Source: Gamsiella multidivaricata
Taxonomy: Eukaryota; Mortierellomycota; Mortierellomycetes; Mortierellales; Mortierellaceae
Direction of reading: 5' to 3'
Assembly (NCBI RefSeq): GCF_025024155.1
Contig: NW_026251713.1
Location: 124,001 to 188,000 of the forward strand
DNA length: 64,000 nt
Of the stretch, positions 6,827-48,354 are shown piece after piece. The notes below the pieces were generated by a model. The model ran no database searches. It was not told the DNA's origin and saw only the letters and a list, made by a program, of their open reading frames with translations. Numbering within the stretch: the first letter of the stretch is position 1; each line of letters opens with the position of its first letter. A program made the position numbers and the translations under genes.

Positions 6827-9800
6827 ATGCCAGGAGAGAAAAAAGCTGCCACTAAGCGCGGCGGCAAGGCAACTGCAGCCGCTCCAGTGCCTTTAGATAT
6901 CGTCCTTGAGGATTCCATCAATATTGTATGAAGCAGCCAGGTTCAGTGTCAAATGTGCTTCATGAAATAGCAGCGATTATGGGTATCTCCAGGCCTAACC
7001 ACTTGCCTATGCCCTATTTTCATAGACGGACAAGGATTTGGCATTTGAAGAGGAACTTCTGCGAAATCCTTATTCGCTACGCCACTGGCTGCGTTACTTG
7101 GATCACCATGCGAGCTCGCCCATTGCACAGCAGTTTGTTGTTTATGAGAGGGCTGTCAAGGAGCTGCCAGGATCATACAAGCTGTGGAAAGCCTATCTGG
7201 ACCAACGGCGGCAGCATCTCGCCAAGCGCGATCAACCCTTTGTGAAAGCTCAGGAGGAGTGGGAGAGCGTGGCCGATTGTTATGAGAGGGCCCTGGTGCT
7301 GCTTCACAAGGTGCGATACGGTCTCTCGAAATACTTGTGCCAGTCTAACCGTTGATGACTATTTGACGCGAGAAGTTATACATTAACCAAGCTGCATTTT
7401 TCACGCGATTGATTTGTTTCTTCCTCAGATGCCTAGGATCTGGATTGACTATTTGGAGCACCTCATGGTGACACCCCGGATTACAAAGACAAGGAGGACA
7501 TTTGATAAGGCACTGAGGGCTCTCCCAATTACTCAGCATATCCGGATCTGGACGTTGTATCTAGGCTGGGCTAAAAAAATTGGTGGCGAGACGGCGTTGA
7601 AAGTATACAAGCGGTACCTGAAGGTAACAAGACTGTTTTCTTCCCATACTTGAAAGCACAAGCATCATGACAAGATGATTGACATCCACGTTCTTGTAAT
7701 AGCTGGAACCGAATCACGGAGAGGACTATGTCGATCTGTTGGTCTCATTGGAGCGCTACGACGAGGCGGCTTCTCGACTTTGCAAGATGATTAACAACGA
7801 AAACTTCCAATCCATGCACGGCAAATCTCATTATCAGCTATGGCGTCAGCTTTGTGATATCATCTGCAGCCATCCTAAGGACATCAAGTCGCTGCCTATT
7901 GAAAGGATCATTCGCAGCGGCATCAAGCGGTTTACAGACCAGACTGGACGCCTCTGGAACGACCTCGCCAAATACTGGATCCTGCTTAACCACTTCGAGA
8001 AGGCGAGAGACGTATATGAGGAGGCGATTACATCTGTCATGACTGTTCGCGATTTCACCCAAGTCTTTGATGCCTATGCTGAGTTCGAGGAGTCCGTTAT
8101 CAGTGCAAAGATGGAGGCAGCGGAAGTAGCGGAGGCAGAGGGCGAAGAGGTCGATCAAATGGAACTCGATATGCGCCTGATGAGACTGGAACGCCTCATG
8201 GAAAGGCGCCCATTCCTGGTCAACGAGGTCTTACTGCGACAGAATCCCAACAGTGTTCATGAGTGGCAGAAGCGGGTGGAGCTATGGGGTGACAACGCGC
8301 CAAAGGTCGTCGAAACTTACACCAAGGCTGTGACAACAATTCACCCCAAGAAGGCGGACGGCAAATTCAACAGCCTGTGGGTCAACTTTGCCAAGTTTTA
8401 TGAGCAAGGCAATGACATCGTATCAGCAAGGACGATTTTTGAGAAGGCGACCAAAGTCAATTACAAGACTGTCAATGATCTTGCGGATGTCTGGTGCGAA
8501 TATGCCGAGATGGAGCTGCGAAACGAGTATGTGGATATGGATTCTCGTTGCCGCGTGTTGCCATGGTAGTGTTTACAGTGCAGTTGACTGATCAGTTTCT
8601 GTGCTTCATCTATTGCTCTCTAGGAATTACGATGCGGCACTGCAGGTCATGGGGCGCGCCACGATACCATCCAAGCAAAAGAACATTGCGTTCCACGATG
8701 AGGTATCGAACAATACATGGAGCATGGCTGTAATGCAGCCTGATGCAAGCCCCTGACATGTTTCTGTGTTTGTTAACATATGCCCGGTTTCTGCTACCAT
8801 TGTGTATCTCATAGACCCTGCCCGTTCAAATCCGCGTTTACAAATCATTACGGTTGTGGTCATTCTATGTGGACTTGGAAGAATCCATTGGCACAGTCGA
8901 ATCCACAAAGGCAGTATATGATAAAATTCTGGAGCTCAAAATCGCCAACCCTCAGATCATTGTCAATTATGCCAATTTTCTGGAAGAGAACAAGTTCTTT
9001 GAGGAGAGTTACAAGGTGTACGAGCGCGGCATCGATCTTTTTGGATACCCAATTGCGTTCGAACTCTGGAATACCTATCTGCTGAAGTTCATCGAGCGAT
9101 ATGTAAGTGATCCTTTTTAAGGTTAAAGTGATATTTGGGCGATATTCGGTCAAAATGCAATTCTCATGGCTAAAGTCGCATCTATTTTCTGTTATTCTTT
9201 CTCATAGGGCGGGACAAAACTTGAGCGCACAAGGGATCTGTTCGAGCAGGCTTTAGAAAAAGTGCCAGCCAAGTACGCCAAACCCTTATATCTCATGTAT
9301 GGTAATCTGGAGGAGACCCATGGACTCGCTCGCCATGCGATGAGCATTTACGACAGGGCAACTAAGGCTGTCGCAGCAGAGGATCGCGCAGACATGTATC
9401 ACTTTTACATTGCCAAGGCCGCAACCATGTTTGGTGTCACCTCTACTCGTGAGATCTACGAGCGCGCCATCGAGGTCTTGCCGGACAAGGATGCTCGTGT
9501 TATGTGCATGCGCTTCGCAGATATGGAGCGAAAGCTGGGCGAAATCGATCGTGCCAGAGGCATCTTTGCACATGGAAGTCAGTTCTGTGACCCAAGAGTA
9601 AGTCGGATTGTTGCAGACGAGGAAGTAATCATGTTCTTTTCAAAATGGGTCAATTTACCAGTAACTAACAACACATCTGTTTACTACACGATCTGGTTAA
9701 TAGATTGCGCCAGATTACTGGCAGGCGTGGCACGATTTCGAGGTCCAGCACGGAAACGAGGACACGTTCAAGGAGATGTTGCGCATCAAGCGCAGTGTCC

Positions 9801-25322: not shown

Positions 25323-26218
25323 ATAACGCCGATTACCAAGGCCGTGGAAAAGGCGATGCAGGACTACGAGTCTGCTGTCAAGGTCCATCTCGTCAATGTA
25401 GCAAAAAAGGCGTCGACTCTCCGATCCTTTTATGGCGGCGCTAGGTTCAAGCAAGACAAGTGCGACTATAGAGAGGCCCTGCGGCATGACCTTGATAAGG
25501 CTACAACCGCGATCCTACAGATGCGGAAGCATGTCCCCGATCGGCAACTATCAGACAAGGATCTCGCGGATGTGCTCCACCATCTTGATGACGATATCAA
25601 GGGTTCCATGGCATTTTTCGATGGATTGCCGAATGTAAAAGAATACGATTGGGCACCATATCTGCGACTCATGGACGAGGTAAATAAGCGACCGGAGATT
25701 GAGCGCAAAACGCTCCTAAAATCCAAGTCGTTGACGAGGCGTCGGAAGAAGATCGCCAGATCTCTCTTCGAACGAGGATTTCTGAATTTGAATACTCTGC
25801 CGGACGACAAGCGTAATGCCTTTCTGCAGTCGCCACTCGTGATCGGGATAGGTAATGGTGATTTCCGTGGTTGGAAAGGTCAGAGCCACGGCGGTAGCCA
25901 GTTTACCAGGAACTTAATGCGACAGGCAAGCATTGAAGACTTTTCTAAGAGAAGCGAGTGGCAATTGAATGATTCTAATATTTTGGCTTCCCCTGGCATT
26001 ACTAGACTCGGGATCTCGTCAAGGACTTGGCAAGGAGCAAGAAGTCACCAGTGGTGATCGAGTTGGTCAAGGTCCCAGAGTTCCGGACGTCGATTTTTTG
26101 CTGTTCGTGCCACTCTCGGATGAGAGTCCGGGGCCGGTCGGTAATCTGCGACGAGTGCAAGTGGGAGCGCGACCGGGACCACAACGCTGCCACGAATATG
26201 TCCAGCGCTGTGTTGTAG
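25323..26218 (+). pseudogene. Fanzor (eukaryotic TnpB-like nuclease), truncated and frameshifted remnant
   Basis: The frame 25344-26057 encodes the segment that lies between RuvC-I and RuvC-II in Fanzor proteins (RSFYGGARFKQDKCDYREAL), followed by VIGIGNGDFRGWKG. A different frame (about 26004-26218) then carries the C-terminal part: VVIELVKVPEFRTSIFCCSC, and ICDECKWERDRDHNAATNM. This has both CxxC pairs of the TnpB zinc ribbon, the alternative catalytic Glu found in Fanzors (PEFRTS) and the RuvC-III Asp (RDRDHNAA). The RuvC-I half and the whole N-terminus are missing, and no clean splice links the two frames. The RDxNAA end resembles the IS607-linked (Fanzor2) lineage more than the copy at 43.8 kb. 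It may be cargo of, or a neighbour to, the Harbinger element. Confidence 0.75.
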
Positions 26219-42444: not shown

Positions 42445-42710
42445 GACAGTTGTGTGATGCGAGGTGATGATGGCGTGAGTGGGGAGTTGAGCTGTGTCGA
42501 ATCGATCCTGAGCGAGGCCGGTGCAGCGCGTTTCGGGACAAAAACAAATCCTGGATCAATCACGTGTAGTCGCCATGCCACTTAAAAAAAAGGGAGCAGG
42601 ACTTTTCAGGCATAAACCTCCTGATTGGCTGGCAGACTTTTTGGACGGAAATAAGTTTTTTAAGGGTGGTAATAAGGACCATCCTATTTTGGAACGCAAT
42701 CTTCTGACCG

Positions 42711-43255
42711 TCAATCAGACTCAATTCCTTGTGCCTGTTTGACAACGGCTAACTGACATCTTTGTCCCGCCTGGACAGTATTGAGGCCCTTCACCTCAAG
42801 CAAGGTCTTCCTTACTCCTGCAATTGTGGTCTGGAAGTACTCGAGCGTACATTTCCTCTTCTTTGTTGAGCCAGCGGCAATGACGATCTCCGATATCATG
42901 TTTTTCAGATCGGCCTCAAGATTCTGAAGCTCCTGCTCTTGATCTTTTTCTCTGGCTATTCTTTTCTGTTCCGCCTTTTCTGCCCTTTGTCTATGAAGTA
43001 GAAGAAGGTTTGCTGGTGGAAAGGTTTGCTCCAAAGACGGTGGAAGTGTTGAATCAGGTGAAGGATCAAAATCATTCTGGTCGGCCTGTACTTGTAAGTA
43101 GTCAACTTCGTAAGGCTCTCCTTGATAAAAATCTCCATGCCCTTATAGACCTTTGCGGTTAAACACATATGTTTGCACGGCGCCTGATGTTGAGCATAAT
43201 AGTTGCAGCGATAGGCAGCAATGATGGCGAATTCTTCGTCTGTACGGACGTCATA
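42711..43255 (-). pseudogene. SWIM-type zinc-finger protein fragment, cut by an LTR
   Basis: The minus strand reads, from the LTR edge at 43255, DVRTDEEFAIIAAYRCNYYAQ followed by HQAPCKHMCLTAKVYKGM, with a SWIM-like C...CxH pattern. A second frame then encodes a Glu/Gln/Lys-rich coiled coil (AEKAEQKRIAREKDQEQELQN) to a stop at 42711. The two frames connect either by a 65-nt intron (donor after CLTAK, acceptor before ADQNDFDPSP) or by a frameshift. There is no start codon: the frame enters directly from the LTR boundary, so the 5' part has been lost. SWIM fingers occur in MULE-type transposases and in host proteins; origin undetermined. Confidence 0.45.
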
Positions 43256-43612
43256 TGTAAGACTTGTGGGTGCGCGAGGAACAACGAGGTGAAAACGAGG
43301 GGAGACGAGTGAACAAGGTGAGTGAACAAAGACGAATGTGTGAAGACAATTGTTTATTGGCTAGACTGTTGTGAGTATATGAACTGTGGTCCAACTACAT
43401 AGTCTGTCCTTCCTTATATACATCAGACGAATGAAGGCCCAGATTAGTAATCCATGGCTCCATGGTTCTAGACGTTTCGGTGCTGCCTTTGCTCATCTTT
43501 GCATCATGGAGCTTTCTGTGATGAGGGCGACGTTGATCCTTTCTTAGACGCGTCTAGCGTCACATGACAATACTAATCAGAGTTAAACTCTGACATGAAC
43601 CCACGCGTTACA
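43256..43612 (-). mobile_element. LTR (357 bp) without matching target duplication
   Basis: Begins TGTAAGACTTGTGGG and ends CCCACGCGTTACA on the + strand. The reverse complement of the end (TGTAACGCGTGGG) shares TGTAA and GTGGG with the start. On the minus strand a TATA box (TATATAA, complement of about 43414-43420) precedes AATAAA (complement of 43353-43358) by about 55 nt, the usual LTR order, so the element points to the minus strand. Flanks differ (TCATA before, GCACT after), so this is not a simple solo LTR. It separates the truncated SWIM fragment from the nuclease gene. Confidence 0.7.
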
Positions 43613-43779
43613 GCACTGATCACTCGTTTTCCTTCCTTACTTTAAACCTCATAACCTCATTGTCTTTGCAGATTCCCGACATCCGACCTCTTTTCCATTG
43701 AATCGATCACATTACTTCAGCTAAACACTACACATTCGACAGCAGCTCTCTCATCGCACCACTCGACGTACAGGAAGTG

Positions 43780-46700
43780 ATGGGTCTTAAAGGCTGGTAC
43801 GCCTTTCTTCGTAAGAAGGGTTACCAACCCTCTGTACTTTACCCATCAGCCGCGTCAACAACCTCGAGCGCCGCCACCAGAAGAGTCGACCTTCTCTCTC
43901 GCATTTCAGTCATCAGGAATGCTTATACATGAAACTCCATCGAGGTGGTCCATACGATCCTAGAGCTGGATGTCATGCGGTTCGGGACCAAGGAAAACAT
44001 CATTATCTACGTCGACGGAGTCCAGGCAGAGGAGAAGGGGTTCACTGCTCAGATCCGCCAAGAAGCTCGGGAGAAGACCACTAAGCGATGCAAAGAAAGT
44101 GTGGATGAACTACAAAGACGGATCGATAACAACCTCAAGGTCCGTAAGCGACACTTTGCCGATGCCTGGACCAGCCTTGCGTCCTCCTTCTATTGGTCCC
44201 TGCCCATCCGTGATGCATTTGTCAAGTATATGCAGGACGAGGGATGGAACATTCAGCGATGCGAGACGGAAGCTGATGTTGTGATCGCTCGAGATTGCAA
44301 ATCTGACGATATTGTCGTGTCTGCGGACAGCGATATGCTCGCGTACCCATCCGTGTCAACCCTGTGGCGCCCGATTTCAAAGAACTTGATTCTGATTTAT
44401 AAGATTTCGGATATCTGTGAGGTTCTCGGTGTGTCTAGGATCCAACTCACGGCCCTCGCTGTTGCCTCCAACAACGACTACGGAAAAAATATCTACTCTC
44501 TTGGACCGGCGACCAACTTTTCGATTATCAAGACGATCAAGAAACAAGGTAAATATCAATGATCAAAGTATTAAGGAGCGAGGCTGAGCCATTTAACTAA
44601 TATATATATTTTTCTACTTTTTTTTACCCTATTTTTGCAGATGTGCGACAGACGGTGAATGCATATTTGGAAGACTCCAAGGTCGTTTTAAAAATCACAG
44701 ACAACAGAACACTTGAACTTGCACTCAGAGTCTTTGTTGATCTCCAACAGACGCCTGTCAGTGATCCTCGTCCTTTGTCCAACGTCTCATCCTACAGTGA
44801 GCTTTACAAACGACTCAAGGATCTTTGTGCCGTGTACCAGGAGAACATGGATTTTCGCGCACAACTGCAACCAAGGTATGCTATATTTCTGTTCAATATC
44901 GCACGGCATTTAGGACTTGGTATCGGCAATCGTCTCACAGCTCACCTTACTTATTGTTTTGAAGTCAATAGTACTCGCAAGGATCAGATCATCCGCCTCC
45001 GCTCCTCGCATTCTTCCATTCGATATAGGTCAGTTGAGTCTCCAGCTATGTTGAAGCCTGGCCTTGGGTCGCGCTTACCACAGCTGCCATCACCGCAACC
45101 ATCCTCAGCACAACCAGAACAACCTGCACCGAACCTGCAGGATAACCCTCCGAACACATTACCGTCTCAGAAGTCAAACGGTCGCCCGCCGCTTCCAAGA
45201 ACGCAATTCCCACGAAATCGCCATCGTTACTCATTCAAGACGAGGACAGGGGCAACAAACCCCCCACCCCCATTCAAGATGAAGCTCTACAAGTTCAAGC
45301 CTTACAAGGAGCCTGAAGCAAAAGACGAGCTTGAGCCCTCCAGCGACGAGTCCAAGCCCAAGCCCAAGCCCAAGACCAAACTCAAAACGTTGTCCGATTC
45401 GAGTGCAGCCACCCGCAAGCTCGCTATTACACGGTTATTACAATACCAGCACCCAACGTCTACTTTGAACGTCGGTACTCTATCCGCTAACCTCAGACGA
45501 GCTCTGCCAAACGACGGTACCGTTCAACAGGAAGTTGCCCTCTGTATCCGAAACGCTGTGCGCGAGGCTGCCAGGATCAGACGACAAGGTCAACGAGTAA
45601 TTGGAAAGTTTGTCGAGCATGTAAACAAGCATGGACCGGGTCCCAACGATCATCGATTCATGAATTTTCTTTGCCCTCGAGTCTCCATAAAGGACGCGAA
45701 AAAGCTGGATGATGGTTGTGCTGCAGAGGACGACGATGAGGATGGTGGTGACATGGACCAGAAATCCAAGGATGGCAAAGGCTCTGAGCAGTTCTTGTTC
45801 CTCCAGAGCTTTCTGTCATACCTCTACTCTGGGAACTACCCACGAAAAAGTGGTACCGGTCAGAAGGTCAACGATTTCATTGATCGCCTCAAGGATCTCG
45901 GACTGTACGCCCCACCACGTCCTCGGGCCGCTCTCAACGAGACAACTCCCTTCTCACCAACAGAGTTACTCCTATCGGTGGCGTTGCAGCTCAAGGTCGA
46001 ACTCAAAAAAATATACCGTAATGGGACCTGTGAGCTGCATAATAAGGTATGAGTTGAGGGCACTACTGGTCATCTTAATGTACATCAAACCGATACCTAT
46101 CATGCCTCTCATTTATTATTTTTTATCTTCTCAAATATAGCTCCAGAAGAGAAAAAAGAAGGGGCTGCTGGGATCTGATGTTAACGTGGAGATCCAGGAG
46201 GAGGTATCTGCTATTGAAAACTACCTCGCGATCAACAAATTGAGTCCAAACCCTCGTAGGATCATCCCCATGTCGACGGCGAAGCAATCTTTTGTCAGTT
46301 TCACGGAGCGACAACTAGCCATGTTCTTTTTCAACCGCGGAGGCGCACTGAGGGCACGGGTTCAGGAGCTGGTCGGTACCGTCTGCACATCCATGCAGGA
46401 TGTTGAGGAGTGGATAGGAGGAAAAAAACCAGGCTTTCTCATCAAGCACCTCATCGTCGATATCGATTCCGAAGATCTGACCAGTCGCCAGAGAGGCAAG
46501 GCTGGACACCGCGCTGCGATCGTTGTTATCCCTTGATGATCTCGAGATCCACTTGCAGGTGCTGAACGATCCAGAGTTCAGACCGGAGACCTATGCCCGC
46601 AAAGGATATTTTCTCAGGGGGTCTTTACGAACTGACGGATTCACTATGCAGCTCCTGTGTTCCAAAGTCAGGGAACTTCTGTCAGTCAAATACAAGCGGT

Positions 46701-47981
46701 TGCCCGACGATCGCCTACCTCCTCGATTGACTTCCACACCTCACGGTACCAGTGATTTTTTTGAAACTTTATCCGAACCAAAGACGATGTGGCGAGACTT
46801 TGGCCTAGTGTCGATCCTAAAGATATCAAGATCCTCACCCTTGATGCAGGACAAGCTTTCGTCGTCGGAGCATACGCACATCTTCCACAATCGGGCAAAG
46901 ACAAGGATCCAGTACAAGGAGCCCCTCCGTCCTTCAAAGGCTCATTCTCTACTACCTCTTCCTCGACAACAACACCACAGGATGTTATGCAGAGACTCAC
47001 TTTGGAACAACAAGCGACCACCAGGCCACCAACAATGATAGGGCTCACGAAGGCCATAGAGCTCACGAAAGCCCACCACCATAATCTTGCTGTCGACCAA
47101 AAAGCGGTGATGCAGCCTGTGTTCCGATACAGACGGTGGCTTGAGGACGAGAAGCAGTTGATTCCAGCGGGTCAGTCAAACTCCATCGCGGACATCGAGT
47201 CCTGTCTTCCTCCTATTCGAGGTCCAGAGGCGAGCGTCACCAATTACATTGAGATGCTTGAACAAGTCGAGGACCGACTGTTGAACTTTTATAATGGTAA
47301 CAATAATCGGCTCAACAAACACACTTGGGATATGAAGCGAGCTAAGCACATCGAGTACCAGGCTATTGCCAACAGCCTACTCCGGATTGTTGGTGGCAGC
47401 ATCGGTGAGCGCTGCAAGGATGACAATCCTGTGTTGATCGGTGTAGGCCTCGGTCAGTTCGGAAGCTCCAGTCGACTGTCATCTCTGCACTCTTCATTTT
47501 TGTCGTATTTCGTCCCAATGGTAAGCAAACTCTTCACCATGTACCATCGGGAATGTCTTCAGAGGAGTGAGTGCCAATGAATAACATATTTTGTTATTTT
47601 ATTTAGGCTCGGTCTCTCAGATACAATGTGGTGGGTCTCAACGAATTTTATACGTCAAAGAAATGTCCGGATTGCCACTGGTTTGTGGCCCAAGTCACCC
47701 TTCGAGAACTCTTCTACCCCCACTGTGGACGGTATCGTCACAGAGATGTGATGGCGGTCGAAAACATGTCCAACATTGCCCGAGAGTACCTATTGCACCA
47801 GGAACGACCACTCTGTCTTCACCCCGTCACGGCAGATGGTAGATACCCATGGATAGAGTCAAGAAGTCCAGGGCAAGAGATGGCCGAAGGGGCGATTGTT
47901 GGAACCAGCGCCACTAATCGCAAAAAAAGATGGAACTTTAGCATTTTGTGTGTACGGCGTGCTGATTACAGGGGGCGTTGA
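43780..47981 (+). pseudogene. XPG/FEN1-type nuclease fused to a Fanzor (TnpB-like) protein; damaged copy
   Basis: Four exons (43780-44548, 44641-46046, 46141-47520, 47607-47981) would give about 1,309 aa. Residues 1-256 form an XPG/FEN1-like PIN nuclease: MGLKGWYAFLRKKGY start, IIYVDGV (Asp about 79), CETEAD (Glu about 162) and VVSADSDMLAY (Asp about 183 and 185). A Pro/Lys-rich linker and a Fanzor-like helical region follow (FLSYLYSGNYPRKSGTGQK). Next come YFLRGSLRTDGFTMQLLCSK, RuvC-I (ILTLDAGQAFVVGAY, Asp about 960), NPVLIGVGLGQF, and GLNEFYTSKKCPDC with the alternative Glu of Fanzors (about 1198). The end has RHRDVMAVENM (RuvC-III Asp about 1232). Lesions: in-frame TGA at 43930-43932; frame 1 to frame 2 near 46500, and back near 46770; and one zinc Cys replaced (YPHC). 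Introns keep phase across the XPG/Fanzor junction, so this is one gene. Probably a decayed mobile-element protein. Confidence 0.82.
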
Positions 47982-48354
47982 TGAATTTACGATGACGTAG
48001 ATAGCGCCTAGGTAGTCCTGTTTTCAAAAAAAAAAAAAGAATCTGCCTCCAATCTACCCAATTTACTGTCCCCTCTCGAGGTCGTAGGAAAAGTGGTCTG
48101 GAGAAGAATCTGGATCAGCTATGTTGTGATGAAGCAGGGCTCGAGGCGGAGAGCAATCCGCTTCGGATTGTTTATAGTCGGATGTATAGGACATATCTAG
48201 AGTCTACGCCGGCAGGAGACATCTGAATGGGCGGATTTGGATGCGAATTTCAAACTACTAGACGTGAAGACAATTCATCGAATCTCCCTTTCGTGTCGCC
48301 TTAAACAAGAGTATAGATTGCCTGTATGATGCTGGATATGTCAACTATGGAATT

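Follow-up and report, generated by a model that had tools for sequence, protein, structure and literature searches.

The genome of Gamsiella multidivaricata (a 37.5 Mb assembly of 180 contigs) holds, in a stretch of 64,000 nucleotides that we call the window (contig NW_026251713.1, positions 124,001 to 188,000; C126:124001-188000 in our numbering), a decayed spliced gene of five exons and four introns on the forward strand at 43780-47978. Its N-terminal half is of the XPG type, a structure-specific nuclease, and its C-terminal half is of the Fanzor1 type, so that the question arises whether the two halves were ever part of one polypeptide and, if so, what a transposon would gain from such a protein. 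Judged by its sequence, the window copy is a broken relic of a larger transposon gene family. From our point of view the most convincing explanation, which we hold with some reserve, is that the locus represents a transposon gene for one protein, consisting of a 5' nuclease, a linker and a Fanzor1-type nuclease, that would act by a cut-and-process mechanism. Both domains, their order, the comparable intron places and the constraint on the halves and the linker can be read directly from the copies; the mechanism is the more conditional part.

In the window copy the XPG motifs VDL, VDG, ETEAD, SADSD and NNDY as well as the Fanzor motifs LTLDAGQ (RuvC-I), NEFYTSKK (with the relocated Glu) and HRDVMA (RuvC-III) can all be read. 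The original prediction, made from this stretch alone, had placed VDG, ETEAD and SADSD and the three Fanzor motifs correctly, and the 92-nt intron that it had proposed indeed joins the exons in phase, with an intron at the same place in a second subfamily (by eye). Its claim of one spliced gene stands as far as the fusion is concerned, which is supported by domain order and coding constraint, but its gene model does not, as there are four introns and the second of them had been taken for coding sequence. Since this intron of 96 nt stays open in the window copy, the 483-residue open reading frame (ORF) found there holds about 32 intron-encoded residues. The features are collected in Table 1.

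Table 1. Features of the XPG-Fanzor locus and of the repeat unit that carries it (window positions; H3TH, helix-three-turn-helix).
Feature	Position	Strand	Description
Family A repeat unit (transposon relic)	42592..48026	+	blastn against other copies
C-terminal remnant of divergent transposase-like gene	42792..43300	-	tblastn with subfamily B gene, E 6.7e-17
Exon 1	43780..44548	+	XPG/FEN1-type nuclease: N and I regions, H3TH; in-frame TGA at 43930
Intron 1	44549..44640	+	92 nt, GT..AG, phase 1
Exon 2	44641..44875	+	follows H3TH, taken as XPG C-terminal helical part; coding homology with subfamily B
Intron 2	44876..44971	+	96 nt, open in window copy; counterparts in B and L054 with in-frame TAA at donor
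Exon 3	44972..46047	+	proline-rich linker and N-terminal Fanzor region
Intron 3	46048..46140	+	
Exon 4	46141..47521	+	TDG-motif region, RuvC-I (LTLDAGQ), GLGQF motif; frameshifts near 46522 and 46762
Intron 4	47522..47607	+	
Exon 5	47608..47978	+	relocated Glu (NEFYTS), TNB zinc ribbon, RuvC-III (HRD); Pfam PF07282 match

A DNA search of the genome found the element at 15 places, the window included. Eight other copies, which together with the window form family A, are 93-97% identical to window 44700-46000, and six copies, 95-99% alike among themselves and about 66% identical to the same stretch, form subfamily B. The divergence between A and B allowed synonymous (pS) and non-synonymous (pN) change to be compared exon by exon. 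Values were pS 0.76 and pN 0.21 in exon 1 (192 codons), 0.69 and 0.35 in exon 2 (73 codons), 0.71 and 0.29 in exon 3 (350 codons), 0.64 and 0.19 in exon 4 (446 codons) and 0.70 and 0.24 in exon 5 (112 codons). Synonymous sites are thus near saturation, each part shows less non-synonymous change, and both halves together with the linker evidently have been under coding constraint between A and B.

On this basis it is very probable that the XPG and Fanzor halves form one polypeptide, i.e., a true fusion. One could imagine instead that the transposon carried two adjacent genes, one for an XPG-type nuclease and behind it a separate one for a Fanzor, whose products were never joined, and in B and L054 the XPG frame does meet a TAA stop right at the donor of intron 2. 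These stops, however, lie within GT..AG introns that four subfamilies have in comparable positions: introns 1 and 2 occupy the same places in A and B (by eye), and L054 and L055 show one that is comparably placed. In addition, the conserved coding sequence of the linker starts at the splice acceptor of intron 2, 93 codons ahead of any start codon common to A and B, and these 93 codons are themselves constrained (pS 0.68, pN 0.35). A downstream exon without a shared start codon argues against two genes, a reading that we consider improbable. Intact homologues with the XPG and Fanzor parts as separate genes, named at the outset as the finding that would overturn the fusion, were not seen within this genome, though no unbroken copy was seen either. 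That the two parts were merely brought together by chance in a degenerate repeat, without a functional fusion, would fit the lesions in the copies read, but it is contradicted by the purifying constraint and by the pairing counts given below, and the same order recurs in at least six subfamilies whose XPG parts are about 20-65% identical, far above controls; we regard chance as a scarcely credible explanation.

Wherever an A copy extends over both halves, the XPG part comes before the Fanzor part, and the order is the same in five B copies (L017-L021; the sixth, L022, begins at a contig edge). Besides A and B, the more distant subfamilies L054, L055, L044, L035, L053 and L041 (subfamily F) were read wholly or partly, and the two parts keep their order, strand and spacing in at least six diverged subfamilies. 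Across the genome, a scan with the Pfam TNB model gave 109 matches, 104 of them above the cut-off, of which two passed only together with neighbours in frame, and the XPG piece of the window gave 116 matches, down to 24% identity, while two further XPG queries gave 93 and 64. A first count, which took 94 of the 116 XPG rows and omitted second pieces, placed an XPG match at most 9 kb upstream of 56 of the 109 TNB places, at a distance of 2.7-3.31 kb in 42 cases; XPG lay downstream of three TNB places and on the other strand at nine. A merged count, for which nine of the 93 and two of the 64 rows of the further queries were added as new places to the window-query rows, and for which RuvC rows without second pieces and 23 of the 28 rows of the upstream-gene search (see below) were used, yielded 102 XPG and 145 Fanzor places. 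Of the 102 XPG places, 73 have a Fanzor place no more than 6 kb downstream in the same orientation, where a naive estimate expects about 1.2 pairs; the reverse order was found at five and the opposite strand at eight. No Fanzor lies near any of the four best-scoring PF00867 matches, which we regard as Rad2-family genes of the host. As many of the places are copies of one another, these counts are not independent events, and more weight attaches to the spread over subfamilies.

As to the nature of the XPG half, a profile of this part (alignment A1) matched the solved structures of RAD2 (E 2.5e-12), XPG (3.5e-9), FEN1 (1.2e-8), EXO1 (6.5e-5) and GEN1 (0.0098), RAD2 and XPG thus being its closest sequence matches, and five transposon-type places passed the XPG_I cut-off in the genome scan. 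All seven active-site acids are kept in three of nine aligned rows, namely L012 (A), L044 and L052, and L018 (B), L035 and L043 keep them at the covered positions, the alignment having gaps in these three and in L055. With RAD2/XPG, EXO1 and FEN1 the half shares the N, I and H3TH regions, the active-site acids and the predicted fold, whereas the host proteins carry no Fanzor part and the second Glu of the I region is an Asp here. Structure prediction, which had been proposed as a check, came out unevenly: the model of the XPG half folds like the RAD2/XPG/FEN1/EXO1 nucleases, but the AlphaFold model of Fanzor exon 4 is poor.

The Fanzor half was examined in four cores (A, B, L054 and L055). The long motif D-X(125,275)-[TS][TS]-X-X-C4 zinc finger-X(5,50)-RD is present with X values of 240 (A), 226 (B), 186 (L054) and 195 (L055), and RD closes it in all four; all four also retain the RuvC acids D, E and D and the relocated RuvC-II Glu (Ealt) within E[FY][YL]TS. 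RuvC-I reads DPG in L054 and L055 and DAG in A and B; the TDG motif, by eye, is RTDGF in A and B, RTDGV in L055 and CTNGL in L054 and is hence exact in three of four. The Pfam TNB model (PF07282) matches all four cores, in the window at 47607-47978 with E 1.5e-8 and 35.1 bits (cut-off 26.3) and likewise above cut-off in L054 (35.9 bits) and L055 (28.9 bits). NCBIfam guided_TnpB gave weak partial matches in all four (best E 2.3e-10), the 17.9 bits of the window core lying below a cut-off of 100 in a model built for prokaryotic TnpB. Among solved structures, the best match of the Fanzor profile is the mimivirus TnpB-like protein L79 (E 4.1e-7), with weak matches to the Fanzor1 of G. theta (E 9.7e-4) and the Fanzor of S. 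punctatus (E 0.098); LaTranC and two apparently unrelated proteins (1.1e-4 and 1.7e-4, other stretch) rank between L79 and G. theta Fanzor1. This profile was built on alignment A3, used in place of alignment A2, in which RuvC-I was misaligned between subfamilies and which gave no match in the PDB.

The C-terminal half can be compared with known systems. With TnpB of IS200/IS605 and IS607, which is smaller and prokaryotic and to our knowledge has no XPG part, it shares RuvC and the TNB zinc ribbon. Fanzor1 proteins are eukaryotic TnpB homologues carried by DNA transposons, including MuDR-type elements of Mucorales, according to the consulted parts of Bao and Jurka (2013; PMC3627910), and the present family agrees with the Fanzor1 described there in the long D-X-[TS][TS]-zinc finger-RD motif, the relocated Glu, the TDG motif and the transposon setting. 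Like MCi-2 in the same parts of that paper, it also has copies with variable 5' ends. It differs from Fanzor1 as presented there in the N-terminal FEN1/EXO1/XPG-type nuclease of the same gene and in the head-to-head transposase-like gene. The TDG motif (WED region), DPG and Ealt are named as Fanzor1 features in the sections consulted of PMC10711439. A Fanzor1 with an extra lineage-specific domain is likewise known from Parasitella parasitica, where, in the portion of PMC11423790 consulted, the FRI domain is described with cyclophilin binding and not as a nuclease, whereas the extra domain here is of a nuclease type. Neither the consulted parts of PMC11423790, PMC10432273 and PMC10711439 mention such a fusion nor do those of PMC3627910 mention XPG. 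In the literature searched, which extended neither to preprint servers nor to most subscription papers and supplements, no XPG-Fanzor fusion was found described, in line with the original prediction, and the pairing of a flap-type nuclease with a Fanzor in one gene seems to be undescribed. Among viral contigs, 52 stretches matched a search pattern and two were confirmed, both ordinary-looking phage-type TnpB loci, with no XPG in their lists of ORFs of at least 150 residues (by reading).

Given a true fusion, what could the two nucleases do together? The putative transposase from the head-to-head gene would move the element; the Fanzor half, guided by RNA from the 3' end of the element, would cut the empty site or the element-less allele; the fused 5' nuclease would resect or trim the 5' ends or flaps at this cut; and homologous copying during repair would restore or spread the element. 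That guided cutting followed by 5' resection or by flap or R-loop processing promotes copying of the element is, provided that the fusion is real, an attractive idea to which we give somewhat less than even chances. Its boldest form, a self-contained homing machine in which one polypeptide, beside a divergent transposase, cuts under RNA guidance, immediately processes broken or looped DNA and forces the element-copying repair, is more speculative and can be proposed only tentatively.

Two other roles for a real fusion have to be weighed against it. XPG cuts at the edge of repair bubbles, and the XPG domain might mainly cut the displaced strand at the edge of Fanzor's own R-loop bubble, giving a double-strand cut by two nucleases; the retention of both active sites in most sequences read and RAD2 and XPG as nearest sequence matches would suit such a role. 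The RuvC of known Fanzor members, however, cuts both strands unaided, and the present observations do not separate R-loop cutting from resection; we judge this role unlikely, if still worth considering. Alternatively, the domain could be a structure-specific DNA-binding module with dispensable catalysis that brings the protein to replication forks or to intermediates of transposition. One active-site position is indeed changed in each of L054 (N at D181), L055 (Q at E158) and L053 (A at D233), so that XPG catalysis may be lost in some lines, but the acids are kept, at the positions covered, in the six sequences named above, and constraint on exon 1 is similar to that on Fanzor exon 4 (pN 0.21 and 0.19). 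We hold a mere binding module to be the less probable of these two.

Returning to the reading of a fused, cut-and-process nuclease, several points besides these active-site changes weigh against it. The cut-and-resect step is one that we infer throughout. Single-sequence Pfam scores for XPG remain under the cut-off (window XPG_I 19.6 versus 24.9 bits; L054 XPG_N 14.0 versus 22 bits), and the model of Fanzor exon 4, at a predicted local distance difference test (pLDDT) score of 34.5, was too poor for a structure search. Among the copies read, which were not checked systematically in this respect, none is unbroken: reading frames are fragmented in A and B, L054 and L055 have at least one lesion each, and the part read of L041 has a frameshift. 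In the window copy the TGA in exon 1 is joined by two gaps that, compared with L009, shift the frame of exon 4, and by the loss of the third Cys of the zinc ribbon (FYPHC versus FCPHC in L014 of the same family). No target site duplication was recognised at the ends of A copies. Finally, an upstream XPG match is lacking at 73 of the 145 Fanzor places; some of these losses are an assembly effect, because several subfamily F copies stop at contig ends.

Should the fusion be real, it would bear on why eukaryotic transposons keep Fanzors. A 5' nuclease constrained together with the Fanzor half points to steps after the cut, i.e., end resection and flap or R-loop processing, and the fusion may offer a naturally occurring RNA-guided nuclease that biases repair towards the use of a template.

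The surroundings of the gene are those of a transposon relic. The right end of the unit is reached by seven of the nine A copies, the window included (L013 and L015 stop earlier), and the left ends vary. In subfamily B the XPG exon is preceded at a short distance by the start of a gene on the opposite strand, so that the two genes lie head to head; of this second gene family A keeps only a C-terminal remnant. The central part of this upstream gene, which by eye we take to be Mutator-like element (MULE)-like, was found in 28 rows at 23 places; at 18 of them it diverges from an XPG or Fanzor place no more than 6 kb away, and at three such a place lies nearby on the same strand. Its pieces matched no Pfam transposase model, PF10551 included, and SWIM only at 0.034; the eight matches of the MULE Pfam model in the genome do not fall on upstream-gene places. 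An imperfect terminal inverted repeat of 35 bp is present only in L012 among eight A copies aligned. Near the left break, TACGTCA occurs in four of eight A copies (L011, L012, L013 and L016), though their outer flanks differ.

About 70-110 nt before the element end, a short hairpin of the TGTGTGT..ACACACA type is conserved between A and B, with differing flanks; the window copy has lost one arm. In an alignment of the 3' ends of L009-L012, L014 and L016-L022 (A4), its seven pairs show no two-sided change, while three of 20 predicted pairs elsewhere do. That the hairpin is part of a guide RNA scaffold is suggestive only.

Subfamily F copies at C12, C88, C33, C121, C62, C140 and C111 coincide with contig ends, and in six of them the compared stretch is 99-100% identical, which would suit a young repeat that breaks the assembly. 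The copy runs up to the contig end in C12, C33, C121, C140 and C111 and to at most four bases from it in C88, and C62 ends 20 bases beyond its Fanzor exon; the copy in C98 (96%) stops within its contig and represents a real truncation or divergence. A ladder of 5' truncations in this subfamily, considered as a sign of retrotransposition, was dropped as most copies stop at or near contig ends.

Further Fanzor-type sequences deserve mention. One, at 26057-26200 (+) of the window, is another zinc ribbon of the Fanzor type, degenerate in sequence (42.3 bits), that has no neighbouring XPG match. At L012 a second, diverged Fanzor copy (about 8170-9652, minus strand) adjoins the A copy in opposite orientation, with a same-strand XPG match at C118:21771-22380. 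Some 5 kb to the left of the window, at C126:114987-118787, lies another XPG-TNB pair, which belongs to the L054 subfamily (XPG part 89% identical).
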